Shown here in pieces: positions 5,714 through 46,170 of a stretch of DNA of 64,000 nt. Under the pieces are notes generated by a model, which was given only the letters and a program-made list of their open reading frames with translations, was not told the DNA's origin and did not search any database. The first letter of the stretch is position 1; each line of letters starts with the position of its first letter. The stretch spans positions 2,666,001 through 2,730,000 of the forward strand of contig NZ_CP144164.1 of assembly GCF_037478005.1 (NCBI RefSeq), in the 5' to 3' direction. Position numbers and translations under genes: made by a program. This stretch comes from Alteromonas sp. M12 (GTDB lineage Bacteria > Pseudomonadota > Gammaproteobacteria > Enterobacterales > Alteromonadaceae).

Positions 5714-5844
5714 GGGCAATCTAGACACAATGACTCCCTTTGATAATGCTAGCCTCCGCATTTTCGTGGGTTAGCTAAAAGCCACCAGAGCGCTGGCCGG
5801 AACCATAATTAGTTTGCTAAAGACTAAATCATTTGGAGGCTAGC

Positions 5845-6999
5845 ATGAACAAACATAGCATAATTTTTTTAGCATTGGATACTCACAAAGAATTTAACGA
5901 AGTGGCTTATTGCGAAGAGCAACGAGGGGCACAGCCTGTGCATTATGGCAGAATACCGTCGTCTAAAGTCAGCATGAAAAAACTCATAAGGCAGTTCGAG
6001 TCTAAATATCCAGGTGCAACATTACATGTTGTCTATGAAGCAGGACCGTGTGGCTATTGGATTTATCGTTTGATCACCAGCCTAGGCCACTGTTGTTATG
6101 TGGTCGCACCGTCCCTCATTCCTAAAAAGCCGGGTGAACGGATTAAAACGGACAGACGTGATGCACTCAAACTAGTCAAATTACTCAAATCAGAAGATCT
6201 CACGCCTATCTATGTACCCGAGCCAGAAGATGAAGCGGTGCGGGATTTATCTCGCGCACGTGAAGCGGCGATGAAAGATTTAAAAGAAGCTAAGTACCAA
6301 CTCAAAGCGTTGTTGCTACGTAATAATATTCGTTATGCAGGCTCCGCCAATTGGTCAAAGAAACACTTGCGCTGGTTAACCGAATTGATACTGCCCCACC
6401 CAGCTCAGCACATCGTTTTGCAAGAACAACTGCAAACCATTGAAGAACGAATACGTCGCTTAGAACGACTCGACAATGAGTTAACCCACCATGTATTTCA
6501 ATGGCGATATTATCCTGTGGTAAAAGCAATTCAGGCAATGCGGGGAGTAAGATTACTAGTTGCAGTAGGCGTAGTCGCTGAACTCGGAGACTTACATCGT
6601 TTTGACCACCCCAGAAAACTAATGGCTTACCTCGGTCTGGTTCCCAGTGAACATTCGTCAGGCGGAAAACGGCATTTAGGGGCCATTACCAAATGCGGTA
6701 ATGGTCGAGCAAGACGGTTACTCATTGAGGGCGCTCACAGTTATCGATACCCAGCTAATATCTCGACGGATATTCAATTACGACAGGAAGGCTTACCCAA
6801 AGATATCGTCGATATTGCTTGGAAAGCACAACTTCGATTGTGTAAACGCTATCAACGCATGAATAAAAAAGGCAAACATTACAATTTAATCATTACTGCA
6901 ATTGCCCGAGAAATGGCAGCCTACATTTGGGCCATTGCCAAAGAGGTGGTACTCACACCAGTAAACCCCAAACTAAGATTAAGTCGAGTACCCGCATGA
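5845..6999 (+). CDS. IS110-family DEDD transposase, copy 1
   Basis: 384 residues from the ATG at 5845, which has GGAGG five bases upstream; an in-frame TTG four codons earlier is less likely. The N-terminal RuvC-like DEDD domain is visible with Asp12 ('LALDTHK'), Glu65 ('VYEAGPCGYWIYR'), Asp103 and Asp106 ('KTDRRDALKL'). A central coiled-coil-like region is followed by the C-terminal Transposase_20 domain ('IQAMRGVRLLVAVGVVAELG... FDHPRKLMAYLGLVPSEHSSGGKRHLG') that carries the catalytic serine. The protein is identical to that of copy 2; only two synonymous differences (6048 and 6819) separate the genes. IS110-family recombinases work with an element-encoded guide RNA. Confidence 0.93.
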   Translation: MNKHSIIFLALDTHKEFNEVAYCEEQRGAQPVHYGRIPSSKVSMKKLIRQFESKYPGATLHVVYEAGPCGYWIYRLITSLGHCCYVVAPSLIPKKPGERIKTDRRDALKLVKLLKSEDLTPIYVPEPEDEAVRDLSRAREAAMKDLKEAKYQLKALLLRNNIRYAGSANWSKKHLRWLTELILPHPAQHIVLQEQLQTIEERIRRLERLDNELTHHVFQWRYYPVVKAIQAMRGVRLLVAVGVVAELGDLHRFDHPRKLMAYLGLVPSEHSSGGKRHLGAITKCGNGRARRLLIEGAHSYRYPANISTDIQLRQEGLPKDIVDIAWKAQLRLCKRYQRMNKKGKHYNLIITAIAREMAAYIWAIAKEVVLTPVNPKLRLSRVPA

Positions 7000-7313
7000 T
7001 GACAAGTTTTGAGTTAACGCATTCGGATCAGGCCGCGGAATGTGGCACAACCTACGAGGGCGTTATGATGGCAGTAACTTAACCGTTATTGATCCACGAG
7101 CATAGACTGATGAGAAGGTGCAACCGGTGACCGGCGCGGGACAAAACGAGTAAGGTCAGCTCTGCTTAGTCACTGAATAAGTAACCTACGGATACCAGCA
7201 TGACAACCGACGACATTACTGCCTCATCCGGTGCATTAGCTCAATTTATTTGAGTGAATGAATAACTAATTATGGACCGAAAAAATGTCAGGGAGACACT
7301 CGGTTTTTATTGA
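7000..7313 (+). ncRNA. Putative guide RNA (seekRNA/bridge RNA) region, copy 1
   Basis: About 314 bases between the transposase stop and the right subterminal repeat carry no ORF. In the IS1111 group the guide RNA is encoded here. Candidate guide segments: ATACCAG (7192-7198) equals the junction formed when right end (…CATACC) and left end (AGAC…) are joined; AGACAC (7294-7299) equals the left tip; GCATTAG (7233-7239) is a one-mismatch complement of the target core CTAACGC. A hairpin CTCAA-tttat-TTGAG follows at 7241-7255. RNA ends and fold are not determined. Confidence 0.5.
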
Positions 7314-7329
7314 CAAAGGGAGTCATACC

Positions 7330-7425
7330 AACGCCGCATTAAGCGGAACAAAAATTGTTGGTTAAACTTGTTGAGGCACGAAACATAACCAACAATTTTT
7401 GTTCCGTTTAAATGCCTTGTTAGCT
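7330..7425 (-). other. attC site interrupted by IS copy 1
   Basis: AACGCCGCATTAAGCGG to GCCTTGTTAGCT with long complementary arms (GGAACAAAAATTGTTGGTTA / TAACCAACAATTTTTGTTCC). The first two bases of its left core (CT) are now at 5721-5722, 1.6 kb away. Recombination at this site should be abolished. Confidence 0.85.
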
Positions 7426-7429
7426 GCCC

Positions 7430-7819
7430 TTAACTCTCATCTGAATCTTTAATTTTACAAATAAGAAAATCAGTTGAGCTTTCCTTCCAGTTAAGCCACA
7501 TAGCAATGAGACTAACTAAAAGCCAAACTCCTGAGCCGATTGCAGACAAAACAAAAATAGCTTCCCATGTACTTGCTGGTATTCCAAATTTTGCAGAGAA
7601 TGTAGCTGATACATTAGCTAACACAACTGAAATAAATAAACCTAATGGGGCTAACCAACCTTTTCTAGTTCCCATTCGCTTAATGTGCTTTATAAGGATG
7701 TTTTCCAGTTTATCTTCTGTTATTTCGATTAGATCAGACTTAACATTTGATCTACGCTCGTTAACAAAACGACTTTCATCACCTGTGCTAAAACTCGCTA
7801 CTTGATCATTGTTTTCCAT
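7430..7819 (-). CDS. Membrane protein paired with a zinc-ribbon gene (129 aa)
   Basis: Start ATG at 7819, chosen because GAGGAGG lies seven bases upstream; the frame open to 7864 has no such signal. A soluble, charged N-terminal half (about residues 1-60) is followed by two hydrophobic helices ('PLGLFISVVLANVSATF' and 'AIFVLSAIGSGVWLLVSLIAMWL'), predicting an inner-membrane anchor with a cytoplasmic head. Family not recognised. It overlaps the upstream zinc-ribbon gene by 14 bases, so the two are translationally coupled in one cassette. Confidence 0.65.
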   Translation of the reverse strand: MENNDQVASFSTGDESRFVNERRSNVKSDLIEITEDKLENILIKHIKRMGTRKGWLAPLGLFISVVLANVSATFSAKFGIPASTWEAIFVLSAIGSGVWLLVSLIAMWLNWKESSTDFLICKIKDSDES

Positions 7820-8078
7820 TAGTAGCCTCCTCTTTAGGAAGCATATCCAATGCACCAAGGGCATGGGAAGTTAATGCACCGCAATTATTACAAGCGATAT
7901 GAGCTACAGGGACACTCGGACCGCCAAAAACAATACCACCTGTAAAGTCATCTTGTAGCTGGATATTTGTATACCCTTCTAATACTGTGAATGCATTTTG
8001 ACCACATCTATGGCAAGGTTTCGTTGCCCCTTTTTCACTAAGTTTTTGTGCAACTTTATCTCTATCCAGTGATTTCAA
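7806..8078 (-). CDS. Zinc-ribbon protein (90 aa)
   Basis: Two CxxC knuckles, 'CHRCGQ' near residue 22 and 'CNNCGA' near residue 63, frame a beta-rich middle, the pattern of a single zinc ribbon. The start is TTG at 8078, backed by AAGGAG six bases upstream. It is the first gene of a two-gene cassette; the partner is a two-helix membrane protein. The cassette is trapped between two direct copies of the same IS. Function unknown. Confidence 0.65.
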   Translation of the reverse strand: MKSLDRDKVAQKLSEKGATKPCHRCGQNAFTVLEGYTNIQLQDDFTGGIVFGGPSVPVAHIACNNCGALTSHALGALDMLPKEEATNGKQ

Positions 8079-8233
8079 ACTTTCTCCTTACTTTAATTCT
8101 GCATGGCAGCTAGACACAATGACTCCCTTTGATAATGCTAGCCTCCGCATTTTCGTGGGTTAGCTAAAAGCCACCAGAGCGCTGGCCGGAACCATAATTA
8201 GTTTGCTAAAGACTAAATCATTTGGAGGCTAGC

Positions 8234-9388
8234 ATGAACAAACATAGCATAATTTTTTTAGCATTGGATACTCACAAAGAATTTAACGAAGTGGCTTATT
8301 GCGAAGAGCAACGAGGGGCACAGCCTGTGCATTATGGCAGAATACCGTCGTCTAAAGTCAGCATGAAAAAACTCATAAGGCAGTTCGAGTCTAAATATCC
8401 AGGTGCAACATTACATGTTGTCTATGAAGCAGGACCTTGTGGCTATTGGATTTATCGTTTGATCACCAGCCTAGGCCACTGTTGTTATGTGGTCGCACCG
8501 TCCCTCATTCCTAAAAAGCCGGGTGAACGGATTAAAACGGACAGACGTGATGCACTCAAACTAGTCAAATTACTCAAATCAGAAGATCTCACGCCTATCT
8601 ATGTACCCGAGCCAGAAGATGAAGCGGTGCGGGATTTATCTCGCGCACGTGAAGCGGCGATGAAAGATTTAAAAGAAGCTAAGTACCAACTCAAAGCGTT
8701 GTTGCTACGTAATAATATTCGTTATGCAGGCTCCGCCAATTGGTCAAAGAAACACTTGCGCTGGTTAACCGAATTGATACTGCCCCACCCAGCTCAGCAC
8801 ATCGTTTTGCAAGAACAACTGCAAACCATTGAAGAACGAATACGTCGCTTAGAACGACTCGACAATGAGTTAACCCACCATGTATTTCAATGGCGATATT
8901 ATCCTGTGGTAAAAGCAATTCAGGCAATGCGGGGAGTAAGATTACTAGTTGCAGTAGGCGTAGTCGCTGAACTCGGAGACTTACATCGTTTTGACCACCC
9001 CAGAAAACTAATGGCTTACCTCGGTCTGGTTCCCAGTGAACATTCGTCAGGCGGAAAACGGCATTTAGGGGCCATTACCAAATGCGGTAATGGTCGAGCA
9101 AGACGGTTACTCATTGAGGGCGCTCACAGTTATCGATACCCAGCTAATATCTCGACGGATATTCAATTACGACAGGAAGGCTTACCCAAAGATATCGTCG
9201 ATATTGCGTGGAAAGCACAACTTCGATTGTGTAAACGCTATCAACGCATGAATAAAAAAGGCAAACATTACAATTTAATCATTACTGCAATTGCCCGAGA
9301 AATGGCAGCCTACATTTGGGCCATTGCCAAAGAGGTGGTACTCACACCAGTAAACCCCAAACTAAGATTAAGTCGAGTACCCGCATGA
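8234..9388 (+). CDS. IS110-family DEDD transposase, copy 2
   Basis: 384 residues, identical in protein sequence to copy 1 (Asp12, Glu65, Asp103, Asp106 and the C-terminal Ser-containing domain all present). The 5' non-coding region is also identical between the copies, while T8437 and G9208 are the only coding differences seen, both silent. The same GGAGG-ATG initiation is used. Near-identity indicates recent transposition or gene conversion within this array. Confidence 0.93.
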   Translation: MNKHSIIFLALDTHKEFNEVAYCEEQRGAQPVHYGRIPSSKVSMKKLIRQFESKYPGATLHVVYEAGPCGYWIYRLITSLGHCCYVVAPSLIPKKPGERIKTDRRDALKLVKLLKSEDLTPIYVPEPEDEAVRDLSRAREAAMKDLKEAKYQLKALLLRNNIRYAGSANWSKKHLRWLTELILPHPAQHIVLQEQLQTIEERIRRLERLDNELTHHVFQWRYYPVVKAIQAMRGVRLLVAVGVVAELGDLHRFDHPRKLMAYLGLVPSEHSSGGKRHLGAITKCGNGRARRLLIEGAHSYRYPANISTDIQLRQEGLPKDIVDIAWKAQLRLCKRYQRMNKKGKHYNLIITAIAREMAAYIWAIAKEVVLTPVNPKLRLSRVPA

Positions 9389-9687
9389 TGACAAGTTTTG
9401 AGTTAACGCATTCGGATCAGGCCGCGGAATGTGGCACAACCTACGAGGGCGTTATGATGGCAGTAACTTAACCGTTATTGATCCACGAGCATAGACTGAT
9501 GAGAAGGTGTCACGGCGGAACGAGTAAGGTCAGCTCTGCTTATTCACTGAATAAGTAACCTACGGATACCAGCATGACAACCGACGACATTACTGCCTCA
9601 TCCGGTGCGTTAGCTCAATTTATTTGAGTGAAAGAATAATTAATTATGGACCGAAAAAATGTCAGGGAGACACTCGGTTTTTATTGA
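9389..9687 (+). ncRNA. Putative guide RNA (seekRNA/bridge RNA) region, copy 2
   Basis: Counterpart of 7000-7313. It carries ATACCAG (9566-9572) and AGACAC (9668-9673) like copy 1, but here the candidate target-pairing segment is GCGTTAG (9607-9613), a perfect complement of the attC target core CTAACGC. The block between GAAGGTG and AACGAG is 9 bases (9510-9518) against 24 bases in copy 1 (7121-7144). Three further substitutions lie at 9543, 9633 and 9640. Confidence 0.5.
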
Positions 9688-9703
9688 CAAAGGGAGTCAT
9701 ACC

Positions 9704-9771
9704 AACGCCGTGCTCTGCGGCAATTTTGTAGTGTAGCGGAAAAATTGTCCGACAGCAGCACTTTGTTATGC
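9704..9771 (-). other. attC site interrupted by IS copy 2
   Basis: AACGCCGTGCTCTGCGG to CAGCAGCACTTTGTTATGC with inner stem (GCGGCAATTTT / AAAAATTGTCCG). The left core bases CT are displaced to 8110-8111. It belongs to the helicase cassette. Confidence 0.8.
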
Positions 9772-44789: not shown

Positions 44790-45758
44790 TTAACCGCCTA
44801 ACATTGCCAAGTGTTTAGTGGCACCCGTGAAACCTTGATCTAACCAATGCGTTGCATCTTTATCACCTAACAATTTTTGCAATTGTCGCTGTAATTGCTG
44901 TGTATCTTGTTGTTGTAAATATTCTCGAATATCCAAACCTTTATCAGCAAAAAGACATAGGTGTAACTTACCAGTTGCACTTATTCTAAGTCGATTACAG
45001 GTCGCGCAAAAGTCTTTACTGTAAGGCATGATAAGGCCAATTTTACCCTGATAATCAGGGTGCCAAAATTCTTGAGCGGGCCCGGCGGTGTTATTTTGGA
45101 TCACTGGGCTCCAACCGTTTTCAGTTAGATACTGCTGAATTGGCTCACCAGACAAATGATTTAATTTGAAAAAATCTTTGTTTTCACCCGTCTCCATCAA
45201 TTCAATAAGTCTAAAGGTAATAGGTGTATGTTTTAACCAGTTTAAAAATACACTGAGTTCGTTACCGTTATATTGGCGCATTAGCACGCCATTTACTTTG
45301 ACTTTTAAGCCACGTTCAATACCACGACTGATACCTGCCAAAATCGTTTCGAGTTTATCGTGTCCGGTGATACTTTCGAACATGCGAGGATCAAGGCTAT
45401 CTATGCTGACATTCAGCGAATTCAGACCCGCATCTACCCAAGAGTCGATTTGCTGTTCTAAACGATAACCATTGGTGGTAATTGCAACCTGTTCAATACC
45501 AGGTGTTGAGGCGGCAATTTGTATAATCTCAGGGAGATCTTTGCGTAATGAGGGCTCACCTCCGGTTATCCTAATTTTCTTAGTTCCTAGCTCTGCAAAA
45601 CCAGCACATATTTGGCGAATTTCAGACAAACTTAAAAAATTACGATCGGAGTCGCATTGGTAACCATCAGGAAGGCAATAGTCGCAACTGAAGTTACAAA
45701 CATCTGTGACGGACAGCCGCAAGTAATGGAAGCGACGTCCATATTTATCTTTTAACAC
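44790..45758 (-). CDS. moaA: GTP 3',8-cyclase (radical SAM)
   Basis: First step of Moco synthesis. Radical SAM cluster 'CNFSCDYC', 'RITGGEPSLRKDL', second Fe-S cluster 'FCATCNRLRISATGKLHLCLF', terminal Gly-Gly ('LAMLGG'). I place the start at the GTG at 45758, giving 'MLKDKYGRRFHYLRLSVTD', which fits the family N-terminus and has GGAAAGGTG six bases upstream; the ATG at 45803 adds 15 residues and lies against the 3' edge of the Moco riboswitch with no Shine-Dalgarno. 322 residues with this start (E. coli 329). Confidence 0.93.
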   Translation of the reverse strand: MLKDKYGRRFHYLRLSVTDVCNFSCDYCLPDGYQCDSDRNFLSLSEIRQICAGFAELGTKKIRITGGEPSLRKDLPEIIQIAASTPGIEQVAITTNGYRLEQQIDSWVDAGLNSLNVSIDSLDPRMFESITGHDKLETILAGISRGIERGLKVKVNGVLMRQYNGNELSVFLNWLKHTPITFRLIELMETGENKDFFKLNHLSGEPIQQYLTENGWSPVIQNNTAGPAQEFWHPDYQGKIGLIMPYSKDFCATCNRLRISATGKLHLCLFADKGLDIREYLQQQDTQQLQRQLQKLLGDKDATHWLDQGFTGATKHLAMLGG

Positions 45759-45773
45759 GTTAAACACCTTTCC

Positions 45774-45911
45774 AAAGTCACGAACAACCAAATTGTTGAA
45801 CATGTAGCGGGAGGCAAACTAGTTTCCCAATTTACCCTGGCAACCCATTATAGTTGCGGCCAAAACTACCTATATTGTATTTCAATACTTAGTAATAGAG
45901 GCTCGGAGTTT
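45774..45911 (-). promoter_or_regulatory. Moco (molybdenum cofactor) riboswitch upstream of moaA
   Basis: Read on the minus strand, the leader shows the conserved pieces of the Moco RNA in order: CTCCGAGCCTCT (about 45910-45898), TTTTGGCCGCAAC (about 45866-45854), GTTGCCAGGG (about 45844-45835), and TTTGCCTCCCG (about 45817-45807), followed by GGAAAGGTG at the ribosome-binding site. This is the layout I recall for E. coli moaA, where Moco binding shuts the operon down. GCAAC/GTTGC and AAACTAGTTT hairpins are visible. Confidence 0.82.
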
Positions 45912-46170
45912 CATTTTTACTATCACTTACTATATTAAGATCTTACTGAGCGTTAGTATAGCATTGTTGATAATGGCATTTAACCTCACTATTGAGGTGC
46001 AACGCAAATTGTTTATTGTTGATGAAGATAATCGAGCTTATTTGAAATCAATGAATCTTATTTTGCACAATTGTATAAATAAAATTAGCACCATATTGGC
46101 ACGTTTGTTGTAAGTTCTATTTGATGATAATGAAAATTCCAATTAATTATTTACTCTATAAAGGCTAATT

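Follow-up and report, generated by a model that had tools for sequence, protein, structure and literature searches.

An apparently recombinant seekRNA region on an unchanged transposase among IS1111-attC elements of Alteromonas sp. M12

When one RNA-guided insertion sequence (IS) is found twice in a cassette array, with the same transposase and with 3' non-coding ends that differ, the question arises whether the guide RNA has been re-tuned to another target or whether the difference is ordinary variation. In seekRNA-guided transposition the transposase binds an essential RNA of 70-100 nt, which co-purifies with it. The IS1111-attC group of such elements was reportedly described by Tetu and Holmes in 2008 and by Post and Hall in 2009. 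A pair of this type lies in the window, meaning the whole 64,000-nucleotide stretch of Alteromonas sp. M12 that was analysed. We consider it probable (about 0.85) that the two copies are one IS1111-attC element with ordinary variation, and that the seekRNA region is reshaped by recombination between elements of the same species, as in a third copy elsewhere in the genome.

The twin elements and their host genome

The host genome is a single contig of 5,012,782 bases with three full copies of the IS (copies 1 and 2 in the window, copy 3 at 4.97 Mb). Two fragments are also present, L010 at 2.18 Mb (2,176,650) and L011 at 2.64 Mb (2,640,923), and L010 retains a form of the long block of copy 1 described below. 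The only integron integrase above the cut-off was located at 4,979,659-4,980,606 (L183); copy 3 lies about 7.5 kb away from it, and the cassette array of the window 2.3 Mb away. The window also contains a molybdenum/tungsten cofactor riboswitch at 45749-45920 on the reverse strand (81.5 bits). Copies 1 and 2 have the same orientation, and each interrupts the R'' arm of an attC in the cassette array. The main features, all on the forward strand, are as follows.

5723-7329, forward: IS copy 1, IS1111-attC type, 1607 bp, ends placed from the subterminal inverted repeats, the 7/3-nt extensions and the split attC flanks
5730-5742, forward: left subterminal inverted repeat of copy 1, ATGACTCCCTTTG, 13 nt complementary to the right end
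5845-6999, forward: transposase gene of copy 1, 1155 nt, 384 aa, protein identical to that of copy 2
7000-7329, forward: 3' non-coding region (NCR) of copy 1, 330 nt, containing the putative seekRNA region (homology and covarying structure)
7314-7326, forward: right subterminal inverted repeat of copy 1, CAAAGGGAGTCAT, complementary to the left repeat
7330-7425, forward: remainder of the attC cut by copy 1 (R'' AAC ... R' GTTAGCT), read directly, with a 26-nt inverted repeat at 7339-7364/7386-7411
8112-9703, forward: IS copy 2, IS1111-attC type, 1592 bp, ends placed as for copy 1
8234-9388, forward: transposase gene of copy 2, 1155 nt, 384 aa, with DEDD_Tnp_IS110 (PF01548) and Transposase_20 (PF02371)
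9389-9703, forward: 3' NCR of copy 2, 315 nt (homology and covarying structure)
9704-9771, forward: remainder of the attC cut by copy 2 (AAC ... GTTATGC), read directly

Both copies split the R'' end of an attC at CT/AACGCC, the rejoined flanks being free of target duplication, and they are attC-targeting IS1111-group elements as the first-pass annotation had proposed. The transposase carries the domains of the IS1111 family (PF01548 at 1.6e-13 and PF02371 at 1.7e-19), the tips read AGACACA-ATGACTCCCTTTG on the left and CAAAGGGAGTCAT-ACC on the right, giving the 7-nt left and 3-nt right extensions of the family, and the NCR downstream of the transposase gene (315-330 nt) is longer than the 122-nt leader. 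Within each twin the subterminal inverted repeats match over 13 uninterrupted nt, as against about 9 nt in copy 3, which is mosaic.

The available part of PMC11187229 describes repeats of about 11-13 bp and a conserved S(T)G motif in the C-terminal domain for the IS1111 family. The IS1111-attC elements ISKpn4, ISPst6 and ISPa25, as they appear in that part, share with the present copies an IS110/IS1111 DEDD transposase with a downstream NCR, subterminal inverted repeats with 7/3-nt extensions, and insertion in one orientation at one attC end. Family transposases are given there as 330-350 aa, whereas those of M12 have 384 aa; ISKpn4 and ISPst6 were compared by description. Copies 1 and 2 are probably the same element inserted twice, in the same orientation, in R'' arms of one array. 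By homology with experimental systems, transcription would start from a promoter formed on joining of the IS ends, the transcript would be processed to a short seekRNA bound by the transposase, and the attC would be chosen by RNA guidance.

Differences between copies 1 and 2

Alignment and direct reading confirmed the differences first recorded for the twins. The transposases are identical, with two silent changes in 1155 nt (6048 G/8437 T and 6819 T/9208 G), and the 122-nt leaders are the same throughout. The 3' ends are distinguished by a 24-nt block against a 9-nt block, by four substitutions (7169 G/9543 T, 7235 A/9609 G, 7259 T/9633 A and 7266 C/9640 T), one of which changes the guide heptamer, and these differences fall in the 3' NCR, which is seekRNA-coding in this group by homology (the available text of PMC11187229) and in which covarying RNA structure was found. 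The variable features are the following.

7121-7144, forward: long block allele of copy 1, near-identical in L010 and in the conspecific element D2R05 C33, predicted to fold as a small hairpin
7169, forward: G in copy 1, which breaks a helix pair between alignment columns 128 and 137 (G x A)
7233-7239, forward: guide GCATTAG of copy 1, with A at 7235
9510-9518, forward: short block allele of copy 2, family-typical by alignment and recurring in other species (e.g. L135)
9607-9613, forward: guide GCGTTAG of copy 2, the complement of CTAACGC

The annotation had further read these differences as change concentrated in the guide RNA. Outside the block, 4 of 306 aligned NCR sites are substituted against 2 of 1155 coding sites (Fisher p=0.020); the NCR substitutions are, however, no denser than synonymous ones (2 of 264 sites, p=0.69), so that the twins differ no more than the silent sites lead one to expect.

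The structural setting of the differences was assessed with an alignment of 57 distinct NCRs from relatives in genomes and contigs (58 were selected and L080 was omitted). RNAalifold placed 25 consensus pairs, 11 of which, in two helices, have changed on both sides and kept their pairing, and the NCR is therefore regarded as a structured RNA. No Rfam family matches the NCR at gathering thresholds, and the hairpin after the guide has stems barely longer than those in shuffled sequence (mean 4.8 against 4.0, 56 of the 57 sequences). Two side observations were made in the NCRs of relatives. In four Pseudoalteromonas elements (L058, L059, L067, L114) about 70 extra nt, which include a strong hairpin, lie upstream of the conserved core, and L152 and L176 have a second hairpin-like insertion site directly before a conserved CATGA.

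The alignment and fold check that had been proposed for the block places it outside a guide loop: its columns contain no consensus pair, and an insertion at the site occurs in 7 of the 57 NCRs across different transposase groups (L007, which is copy 1, L122, which is copy 3, L123 and L136, and slightly upstream in L152, L156 and L161). The block was accordingly rejected as a piece of a guide loop and is treated as a recurrent indel allele.

The substitution in the guide heptamer bears on the suggestion that a change from GCGTTAG to GCATTAG re-tunes the target choice of copy 1. Base 7235 adjoins the TTAG segment, which is the part that matches the target by complementarity; an A there would pair with T at target position +3. 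A guide-target table was compiled from 87 element entries, from which 14 without flank and three without a guide by the pattern used (L167, L101, L103) were removed, and the 70 element-site rows kept are not independent, because some are copies within one genome. The right flank was scored in all 70 rows, though the complete attC was read for copies 1-3 only. AAC stands at the right flank in 68 rows (the exceptions being L165 and L107), and the top-strand match is clear at target positions -1, +1 and +2 (67, 69 and 69 of the 70 rows), while the bottom-strand match (CTAA before TTATGG), read by eye, does not hold family-wide. Guide A, as at 7235, occurs in 20 of the 70 rows; one of these relatives (L165) sits at AAT, in favour of re-tuning, but the other 19 sit at the usual AAC, as does copy 1 itself. 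In the predicted folds of copies 1 and 2, base 7235 pairs with a U of TTATGG, and A or G there would be neutral because both pair with the same U (A-U or G.U); this is a single-sequence prediction, and copy 3 folds otherwise. Re-tuning by guide-target covariation was rejected, as A or G at 7235 does not track the target base in the 70 rows. Both twins stand at CT/AACGCC and the guide base varies across the family with no change of target, and re-tuning of copy 1 is accordingly judged very improbable.

Comparison with conspecific elements indicates on which side the changes lie. The D2R05 C33 element has the long block of copy 1 with one base changed, C at the site of 7266 and the bases of copy 2 at the other three sites, and the T at 9640 of copy 2 recurs in D2R05 C14, which has the 3' arm of copy 2 exactly. 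The copy 1 bases at 7169, 7235 and 7259 are absent from the comparable conspecific elements; since D2R05 C33 carries the bases of copy 2 at all three sites and D2R05 C14 the 3' arm of copy 2, these are three changes on the side of copy 1 that its conspecific relatives do not share. Such private bases might be taken for assembly or sequencing errors in near-identical repeats, but the genome is a single complete contig, the long block recurs in L010 and, with one base changed, in the independent conspecific assembly of D2R05 C33, and the 3' arm of copy 2 is identical to that of D2R05 C14 at 93 of 93 positions; errors are therefore a most unlikely source of the twin differences.

Slow decay of copy 1 after insertion, with private NCR changes accumulating free of selection, is a more serious if still lesser possibility. 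At 7235 and 7259 copy 1 stands apart from copy 2, D2R05 C14 and D2R05 C33. At 7169 it has a base found in none of copy 2, D2R05 C33 and L010, and this base disrupts a pair that is intact in 55 of the 57 NCRs. The changes are, however, only three, the transposase frame of copy 1 is intact, and 7235 is a family-wide polymorphism. Three private changes, of which that at 7169 disrupts a helix pair, leave room for mild decay or relaxed tolerance in copy 1. No difference between the copies accompanies a change of target class, and the twins therefore appear to differ by ordinary variation, that is, by a peripheral hairpin indel allele and point changes at the silent-site rate, perhaps with mild decay of copy 1.

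Copy 3 and exchange across the family

Copy 3 (4.97 Mb) is a complete third copy with the same transposase as copies 1 and 2. Against copy 1 it differs at 2 of 1155 positions in the coding sequence (CDS), 0 of 71 in NCR segment I, 36 of 118 in segment II, 1 of 45 in the core between segments II and IV, and 25 of 84 in segment IV plus the right end, the single core difference being the A at 7235 of copy 1 itself. The excess of changes in NCR segments II to IV (62 of 247) over synonymous sites (2 of 264) is strong (p=2e-19). The proposal of a guide region that varies beside an invariant transposase is upheld for copy 3, outside the window; copies 1 and 2 differ at the silent-site rate.

A match to part of this divergent region was found in D2R05 C14, an element of a conspecific strain that has a different transposase type, an internal deletion in its transposase gene and the segment IV of copy 2. 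Copy 3 differs from it at 21 of 69 positions in segment I, 0 of 120 in segment II, 0 of 45 in the core and 25 of 84 in segment IV, whereas copy 2 differs from it at 118 of 501 positions in the C-terminal part of the CDS, 28 of 104 in segment II, 0 of 45 in the core and 0 of 93 in segment IV. The 45-nt core is identical in copy 2, copy 3 and D2R05 C14. Because segment II of copy 3 matches D2R05 C14 at 120 of 120 positions, and segment IV of the latter matches copy 2 at 93 of 93, segments of the seekRNA region were very probably exchanged by recombination. The two ends of copy 3 belong to different types, the right one reading ..CATGGGGAGTCAT, and the two repeats match over only about 9 nt. RNA regions can in general change rapidly, but very fast mutation is a barely credible origin of an NCR whose segment II is identical to that of an element with a different transposase and whose right end has switched type.

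The NCR of copy 3 thus appears to have been remodelled by segment exchange with another element, the transposase and the target class being unchanged. The data fit a two-parent model, in which copy 3 would be element A (the type of copies 1 and 2) through segment I and element P thereafter, and D2R05 C14 would be P through the core and A thereafter, the segment IV of P itself being a prediction. The donor of segment IV of copy 3 was not found, the best matches reaching 80-81 %, one of them a fragment from the same genus (L030). Homologous recombination between elements within one host species would accordingly reshape the seekRNA region, having placed segment II and segment IV with the right end of another lineage on the transposase of copies 1 and 2, with the converse combination in D2R05 C14, the exchanged segments flanking the shared core.

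Among 71 elements, nine pairs have a CDS identity of at least 95 %, and in the two pairs that include copy 3 the NCR identity falls furthest below that of the CDS. A milder case is L154/L155, with 97.3 % coding and 88.7 % NCR identity, which are sisters on the CDS tree with different segment II types. On a CDS tree of 33 rows the segment II type changes seven times, at least five of these changes being forced by well-supported branches, and the type is weakly clustered (7 changes against a shuffled mean of 9.4, with 24 of 500 shuffles as low). In 22 close rows, copy 3 excluded, the segment II type changes six times and the arm type three times. The type labels were text patterns with one mismatch allowed, so that some type switches could be convergence; Pseudoalteromonas rows fall under 'alpha' for this reason, which was avoided in the 22-row count. 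A broader claim, of more shuffling in the NCR than in the transposase gene, was rejected after a four-gamete control on 22 rows (L123, with an internal deletion in the coding stretch, was left out): incompatible site pairs amounted to 12854/22366 (57 %) within the coding sequence, 586/1485 (39 %) within the NCR and 6282/11660 (54 %) between them. Incompatibility within the transposase gene is at least that within the NCR, and exchange or homoplasy is therefore not special to the NCR.

As a separate observation, a 77 %-identical relative (L187, NZ_CP095763.1, 28876-30030) was found on one Klebsiella pneumoniae IncC plasmid, with arr-3 on one side and qacEdelta1 on the other, and the IS group is therefore also present in a clinical-type integron region.

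Leader complementarity and known systems

One of the twin substitutions, 7266/9640, falls where the NCR is complementary to the transposase leader, pairing as G-C in copy 1 and as G.U in copy 2.

5803-5814, forward (copy 2: 8192-8203): leader segment CCATAATTAGTT of copy 1, read directly
7264-7275, forward: AACTAATTATGG of copy 1, 12 nt, complementary to leader 5803-5814
9638-9649, forward: AATTAATTATGG of copy 2, same site, with one G.U to leader 8192-8203

Complementarity between the leader and the NCR 3' arm also occurs in the relatives L096, L102 and L151, and extends to 24 nt with one mismatch in L096. Leaders scored against their own NCRs (63 rows, seven entries without the leader motif having been dropped) gave a mean of 24.2, above the maximum of 23.0 among 2000 permuted partners, and, when the alignments were anchored independently (62 rows), the fraction paired came to 0.58, compared with 0.35-0.41 in slid versions. 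Compensatory changes between leader and NCR showed no excess over shuffles in the same 62 rows (25 cells, 232 of 500 shuffles as high). The complementarity is conserved in sequence, and it is lost in copy 3 (score 15.5 against a shuffled mean of 15.3). It is an unlikely reading that the seekRNA region is a cassette exchangeable between transposases within the species, whose 3' arm pairs with the transposase mRNA leader (CCATAATTAG with CTAATTATGG) and so ties transposase expression to the guide RNA, and that this pairing was lost in the arm-swapped copy 3.

Two further observations concern the leader. It differs between copies 1/2 and copy 3 by a 15-nt hairpin-like indel (CCAGAGCGCTGG..), with a similar insertion in L054 and L156. 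Its arm TGCTAGCCTCC can pair with GGAGGCTAGCA (5747-5757 with 5835-5845; copy 2: 8136-8146 with 8224-8234), and as GGAGGCTAGCA contains a likely ribosome-binding site and touches the start codon, translation control by leader pairing is possible.

Natural re-direction has been described for ISEc11/ISXne4 and ISEc21/ISMch6, where, according to the available part of PMC11187229, the seekRNA region is replaced or altered and related transposases are still used, as here; those transposases are 72 % identical and the target changes, whereas in M12 the transposase is identical and the target class constant. IS621 with its bridge RNA belongs to the same family of RNA-guided DEDD recombinases; as the available part of PMC11208160 describes it, however, it is an IS110-group element whose RNA lies in the left end and has two programmable loops. 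Exchange of the NCR between IS1111 copies was not reported among the matches listed in the literature search, as judged from titles and the starts of abstracts.

Elements of this kind are already known, and what is worth keeping, as far as sequence comparison can tell, is that copy 3 combines a recombinant NCR with the transposase and the target class of the twins. Natural guide change in RNA-guided insertion sequences is little documented in the literature searched. The twins carry a caution, that a guide-region difference between near-identical copies need not mean re-targeting, and whole guide-region segments swapped around a conserved core on a constant transposase would provide a natural experiment on how far guide RNAs and transposases can be combined at will.
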